Shown here one piece after another: positions 6,300-8,011 of a DNA stretch of 53,629 bases. The notes below the pieces were generated by a model. That model saw nothing but the letters and a program-made list of their open reading frames with translations. It was not told where the DNA came from and searched no databases. Source of the stretch: an uncultured archaeon (GTDB lineage Archaea; Thermoproteota; Nitrososphaeria_A; Caldarchaeales; Calditenuaceae); contig CALIKS010000020.1 of the NCBI GenBank assembly GCA_938017985.1, positions 1-53,629 on the forward strand, read 5' to 3'. The position numbers and the translations under genes are program-made. The number at the start of each line of letters is the position of its first letter. Within the stretch, counting starts at the first letter, position 1.

Positions 6300-6411
6300 G
6301 CGGGGGTAGCCAAGCCTGGTCAAAGGCGGCGGCCTCAAGATCATATTCAAGCTGGCGAGATGTGTGAGCCGCTCCCGTAGGGGTTCGTGGGTTCGAATCC
6401 CACCCCCCGCA
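6300..6411 (+). tRNA. tRNA-Leu (anticodon CAA) with 27-nt intron at 37/38 (intron about 6340-6366)
   Basis: GCGGGGG/CCCCCGC acceptor; GCGGC-CTCAAG [atcatattcaagctggcgagatgtgtg] A-GCCGC anticodon arm; long variable arm; GTGGGTTCGAATCCCAC T-arm. Confidence 0.93.
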
Positions 6412-6720: not shown

Positions 6721-7863
6721 TTATGGTGGGAGAAATATGAGTTTTTCTGGTGGTAGTATTTTGTTTATTTGGTTAGCTATAAGCATGAGTAGTCCTCCTT
6801 TAAGCATGTTTAGCGGTGACAGGCTTTTTTGGAGCTTATTATCTGATGAGAACCTCTTCATCTGCTTTTTCGTATTCACTTCTATTTTCTTTACAACTTT
6901 TTTCAGTAGTTTTTCGTATACTTTTGCAGCTTCTAATCCTTCTTCTTCAGCCTTTGTTATGGCCTTTACTGCCAAGCGTCCGCTGAGGGCGGCGTTATCC
7001 ATTCCCACGCCTCGATATAAATCAACTAAGCTTGCAGCGTCCCCAATCAGCAATATTCTTCCCTCTCCAGGGAATATTGTGCTTTTTAATGTAGAGGAGA
7101 ATCCTTCTTTTTTAACGACTTCGCCGTGAAGCCCATACTTTTCCTTAACATAATTGAAGAATTTATCTGCATATTCTAACGGGTTTTCGTTGGCGCCGGT
7201 GCCGATTACCCATCTGTCATCTTTTAGGTAAATCCATGCAAACATTAAAGGACAAAACTCGCGTTTATAGAACATGTAAAGCGTGTTTGGGTCAAGATTT
7301 GTCTCTCCGACAAAGTAATAGTTTATTGTTGCCCCTGGAACAAGCCGTGTTCTGGAATTCAGTTTCAATATTTTGAGAAGCTTATTGGAGAGAAAATACC
7401 TAGGGAGAAGCTTTGCAGAAACGAGCTCTTTAAAGTCGAGATAGTAACTCCAACGGATAAGGTTTTGAAGGGCAGAATGAAAATGCTGAACTTCTGGAGA
7501 TCAACCTTCGATGATTGGCTTAACTCACTTGCAGAGGATGCTGGCGCAGATTTTCGCGACAATACTTCATTAATCGATTTCGTTGAAGATAAAAGTGAGG
7601 GCAAAATAATCGTTAAAATATTAGCGGAGGGCAAGCCTAAGGAGGTTAAAGCCCGCTATCTTATTGGTGCTGACGGAATGCTTTCACGGGTTAGAAGAAG
7701 ACTGCGGCCACAAGACTTTAATGGAAAAGCCTTTAGGAGTCTTAAACTTCTCAAGCAACAACGTCTTAAAACCACTTTTTGCTGCAAACCTTGCAGCAAC
7801 AGAACCAGACACCCCACCACCCACAACCACTACATCATACTTATCCAACCACGCATCACCCAA
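6721..7863 (-). pseudogene. Geranylgeranyl reductase family flavoprotein gene, internally rearranged (central segment inverted)
   Basis: N-terminus on minus (YDVVVVGGGVSGSVAARFAAKSGFKTLLLEKFKTPK, 7863 to about 7732); middle on plus (KPCSGIQFQYFEKLIGEKIPREKLCRNEL...YLIGADGMLSRVRRRLRPQDFNGK, about 7343-7729); C-terminus on minus (LVPGATINYYFVGET...GRILLIGDAASLVDLYRGVGMDNAALSGRLA, about 7341-6721). Confidence 0.85.
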
Positions 7864-8011
7864 TCAGTAAGTTAAAAATAAGGCCCTAAAAAGGCTAATT
7901 TAACGTTTCAGTGCAGAAGGAGTTAGTTAGGCTATGCATAACTGATTTGTCGAAACATATTTACCAATAAATTTGCGCGTATCCTCCGTGCATATAATAT
8001 TTTAACTAGTT

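Follow-up and report, generated by a model that had tools for sequence, protein, structure and literature searches.

An in-place inversion within a geranylgeranyl reductase-like gene of an uncultured archaeon: most likely a recent, one-off loss of the gene

Introduction

Invertons, among them intragenic phase-variable inversions, are flanked by inverted repeats of 10-40 nt (PMC11892184). Inverted junctions also arise during multiple displacement amplification (MDA); these chimeras mostly carry an intervening deletion and short complementarity (PMC1855051). The locus described here is like an inverton in that a piece of DNA inside a gene has been flipped in place, but it differs in having neither flanking inverted repeats nor a partner recombinase, and a single orientation is known here, from an assembled contig.

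The gene, as judged from its sequence, can be assigned to the geranylgeranyl reductase (GGR) superfamily (TIGR02032; structures 3oz2 and the archaeal GGR 3atq/4opt). It shares with this superfamily a full-length profile match and, once re-inverted, the FAD, KPCSG and GDAA..D.YRG motifs; it is unlike it in belonging to a divergent subfamily, which falls just below the curated cut-off even when intact, and in being broken in three here. The locus may also be set beside ordinary pseudogenes of laterally acquired genes, with which it has in common a sporadic distribution and independently broken copies (G013, L069, L071, L087 and G222), although the break here is a clean small inversion rather than stops or deletions.

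Results

The middle third of the gene lies on the opposite strand

The gene occupies positions 6721-7863 (minus strand) of the window, the whole 53,629-nt stretch that was analysed (contig C20 of a draft genome). It was confirmed that, in the sequence as assembled, its middle third is flipped in place. The parts of the broken gene are:

7734..7863, minus strand: N-terminal piece, codons 1-43 and part of 44, with the FAD-binding GGGVSGS motif (blastn/tblastn to L045-L051; Pfam FAD-binding families)
7716..7751, no strand: right joint, GCCTT joined to TAGGAGTC; the ancestral Y site in most relatives is CC[T/C/A]AGGAACAAG (14-orthologue alignment)
7337..7733, plus strand: inverted middle piece, about codons 44-175, NKPCSG...DFNGKA, 397 bp (alternatively 7338-7732; orthologues, ab initio strand switches and restored joints)
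7319..7354, no strand: left joint, GCCCCT joined to GGAACAAG; the ancestral X site in relatives is AAAGCCT[C/T]AGGGGC (14-orthologue alignment)
6721..7336, minus strand: C-terminal piece, about codon 175 to the stop, GATINYYF...GDAASLVDLYRG...FLPP (DNA identity 86.7% to G347 and 85.8% to G049)

With intact orthologues, blastn splits the locus in three, the middle piece matching on the strand opposite to that of its two neighbours. For the copy of G347 (L045), the matches on one strand are 6721-7337 (86.7%) and 7734-7872 (89.3%), and the match on the opposite strand is 7332-7732 (89.1%). A 7-state coding model, trained on the genome itself and given no homology input, switches strand at 7337 and 7729. 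Relative to every full-length relative found in searches of the order, the phylum, the class and genome contigs, window 7337-7733 (397 bp) is inverted, and the flipped form was seen in no relative in these searches.

The ancestral X and Y sites were fixed by alignment with 14 orthologues, which places the breakpoints at 7336/7337 and 7733/7734 (397 bp) or, equally, at 7337/7338 and 7732/7733 (395 bp). Re-inversion of 7337-7733 gives a collinear open frame of 380 codons with zero bases gained or lost. These limits restore GACTCCTA joined to GGAACAAG at one joint and AAAGCCTT joined to AGGGGCAAC, the form of L067 and L227, at the other, so that every base at the restored junctions also occurs in relatives: most of them read TPRNKPCSG, and L067/L227 read GCCTTAGGGGC. 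The limits 7338-7732 restore the commoner form GCCTCAGGGGC, but with a lysine in place of the relatives' arginine. Under either pair of limits both joints are reciprocal and blunt, with 0 bp of breakpoint homology. Arbitrary inversions in the same stretch keep the frame open in 19% of cases, and the open frame by itself is therefore weak evidence; the inversion is proven by the collinearity with orthologues.

An earlier note, made from the letters of this DNA, had described an in-place inversion of the centre of the gene, and the blastn strands, the ab initio switches and the collinearity all bear this out. It was also right that re-inversion restores an open frame, although its limits of 7344-7729 were a few bases off and dropped the 'RN' of TPRNKPCSG. 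The AAGC/GCTT inverted microhomology that it placed at the joints did not survive: the AAGCC strings near the ends are direct repeats.

Identity of the re-inverted protein

The re-inverted protein shares 83-88% identity with the intact proteins of other archaea, and its sequence supports its identification, as the earlier note had it, as a GGR-superfamily flavoprotein, of membrane-lipid type by family. It matches TIGR02032 over positions 1-297 of 297 with 145.9 bits (E 2.1e-42), below the curated cut-off of 158.8; an intact orthologue, at 148.9 bits, likewise falls below it. Among solved structures the closest in sequence is 3oz2, the digeranylgeranylglycerophospholipid reductase of Thermoplasma acidophilum.

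The nearest relatives (G347, L084 and L067, at 85-91%) are common to all the pieces. The pieces therefore come from one GGR-family gene, as the earlier note had assumed, and not from two species, and a cross-species chimera within the gene was rejected. As assembled, the minus frame across the middle contains stops, so that the gene has no uninterrupted frame in the genome. The search for an intact paralogue that the note had proposed gave no second close or uninverted copy in the assembled genome; there is a distant GGR-like frame of 343 codons on contig C35.

It has to be considered that the locus works in its rearranged form, for instance with a new protein made from the plus-strand frame across the middle (208 codons) or from the C-terminal piece. 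Both frames are indeed open, but the FAD-binding N-terminus is missing from both, the plus frame terminates in arbitrary antisense sequence and no relative has such a form; this reading is hardly credible.

Age of the inversion and selection on the pieces

For the inverted piece, pairwise dN/dS is 0.106 in pairs that include the window and 0.114 in intact pairs; for the C-terminal piece the corresponding values are 0.119 and 0.085. No stop has accumulated in any of the three pieces. Since all pieces show codon evolution like that of intact copies and lack stops, the flip is, on this sequence evidence, young relative to the divergence from G347, in agreement with one of the options of the earlier note, a very recent event. 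At otherwise invariant sites the window copy has 7 private changes and its closest relatives 0-2, a hint of relaxed constraint either preceding or following the flip, but more distant orthologues reach the same number. At 7840-7863 the ATG that close orthologues use in frame is either lacking or shifted out of frame in the window copy, which is left with TTG starts only, possibly a further sign of decay.

The joints carry neither inverted repeats nor the typical marks of an amplification chimera

No inverted repeat was found at the breakpoints: the best within 12 nt scores 3 against a random mean of 4.5, and within 25 nt P = 0.65. This bears on the possibility, left by the earlier note, of a phase-variable intragenic inversion that reversibly toggles the reductase. 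The stop-free pieces and the intact restored frame would suit such a switch, as would the tyrosine recombinases present elsewhere in the genome, but the flanking repeats of 10-40 nt that invertons carry (PMC11892184) are absent and the flipped form occurs in no relative. Of recombinases, the tyrosine type (PF00589) is present on other contigs only, no serine recombinase was found, PF00239 being unmatched in the assembled genome, and no recombinase was found on the locus's own contig. The lack of repeats and of a serine recombinase, together with the location of the tyrosine recombinases elsewhere, argues against a phase switch, which we regard as improbable. Still less probable is an archaeal switch that lacks inverted repeats, in which some unknown recombination activity would flip a lipid-type reductase gene at blunt sites that share no homology. 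A switch, if true, would matter more; the evidence points away from it.

The most serious competitor is that the real chromosome is uninverted and that the contig was misjoined or the template DNA chimeric. Intact pieces that evolve under purifying selection, as seen here, are what a whole real gene would show; the inverted form is known from one contig only, and the genome is a draft (72 contigs, 1.63 Mb, 83% complete). Against this, there is no inverted repeat that could let an assembler flip the piece, and the contigs contain no N gaps apart from six that are wholly masked. The joints lost 0 bases and share 0 homology, and such reciprocal joints are unlike typical MDA chimeras; two independent chimera events would be required (PMC1855051). 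Further in-place inversions, which would be a sign of a systematic assembly fault, were sought by an ab initio scan that covered ~94% of the genome (~6% missing) and that recovered both joints of 56%, and at least one joint of 89%, of simulated 395-bp flips. After examination of 65 strand switches, no second in-place inversion was found in that ~94%; the candidates at C20:17616-18151 and C7:91193-91475 could be traced to a tRNA spacer and a threonine-rich repeat. An artefact is less likely than a real inversion, though likelier than a switch.

The gene is sporadic and repeatedly broken

In the related genomes searched, every full-length copy found is uninverted. The gene is carried by 4 of 44 genomes in the order: inverted in the window, decayed in G013, intact in G020 and split between two contig ends in G038. 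With Terraquivivens (L070) and Wolframiiraptor (L089) among its relatives within the order, the draft genome would itself belong to the Caldarchaeales (Aigarchaeota). Orthologues whose proteins are 83-88% identical are present in Bathyarchaeota, Brockarchaeota, Hadesarchaea/Hadarchaeota, Methanomethylicales and Caldarchaeales. The gene tree is star-shaped and at odds with taxonomy, and no neighbour genes are common to the orthologues. Because of this high cross-phylum identity, non-taxonomic tree and lack of common flanking genes, the gene, which is sporadic, has apparently spread horizontally. No viral relatives of it were found.

Several other copies are damaged. L069 has an in-frame TGA at codon 249, G222 has ten stops, and L087 (Bathyarchaeota) has a single in-frame TAG at codon 137 with the rest intact, which could be pyrrolysine or mark a pseudogene. 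L071 (Nitrososphaeria) lacks its first 44 codons, and its cut at codon 45 corresponds to junction Y of the window (L071:1500-1530). In G038 (Wolframiiraptor), an assembly of ~3.8x coverage, a contig ends at C23:99802, ~8 nt or less from junction X. A recombination hotspot at the junctions was considered on account of these two copies and set aside; the breaks are too few and possibly due to chance.

Discussion

The explanation that we favour, with reasonable though not full confidence, is that a GGR-superfamily gene, dispensable and gained by lateral transfer, lost its function through one recent inversion of ~397 bp in the chromosome. Two double-strand breaks within the gene would have freed the piece, which would then have been rejoined turned round, by blunt end-joining as the two joints suggest. 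What would have been left is 43 codons of the N-terminus, a C-terminal half without its head and a middle in antisense, from which it is likely that no enzyme is made. Most likely, then, the flip switched the reductase gene off for good, and quite recently. The gene is seemingly dispensable, since its occurrence is scattered and other archaea carry several copies that broke independently, and this suggests a lineage that has no need of it. The reality and the fixation of the inversion are to be read on the basis of a single assembled contig from the one genome of its species and genus.

If confirmed by reads, the locus would be a base-exact case of gene loss by non-homologous micro-inversion in an uncultured archaeon, and a direct footprint of end-joining repair whose ancestral joints are known from relatives. 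Gene callers would give two or three hypothetical proteins here, overlooking the pseudogene.

The surroundings of the gene also deserve comment. Intact orthologues (L067:2874-4123, L083:2921-4168 and L070:2878-4123) form a lone unit of ~1.25 kb between two related palindromes with differing 7-nt loops, TTCTGTTA-GTGTCTC-TTAACGGAAA and TTCCATTA-ATCATCG-TTAACGGAA. The 3'-type palindrome is also scattered between genes, at up to 6 sites in a genome, against 0 in a reversed control of those genomes. These palindromes may serve the movement of the gene or act as a terminator; neither is left in the window copy. About 310 bp downstream of the broken gene, at window 6300-6411, lies a tRNA-Leu(CAA) with a 27-nt intron, missed by default ARAGORN and found by a run that permits introns.
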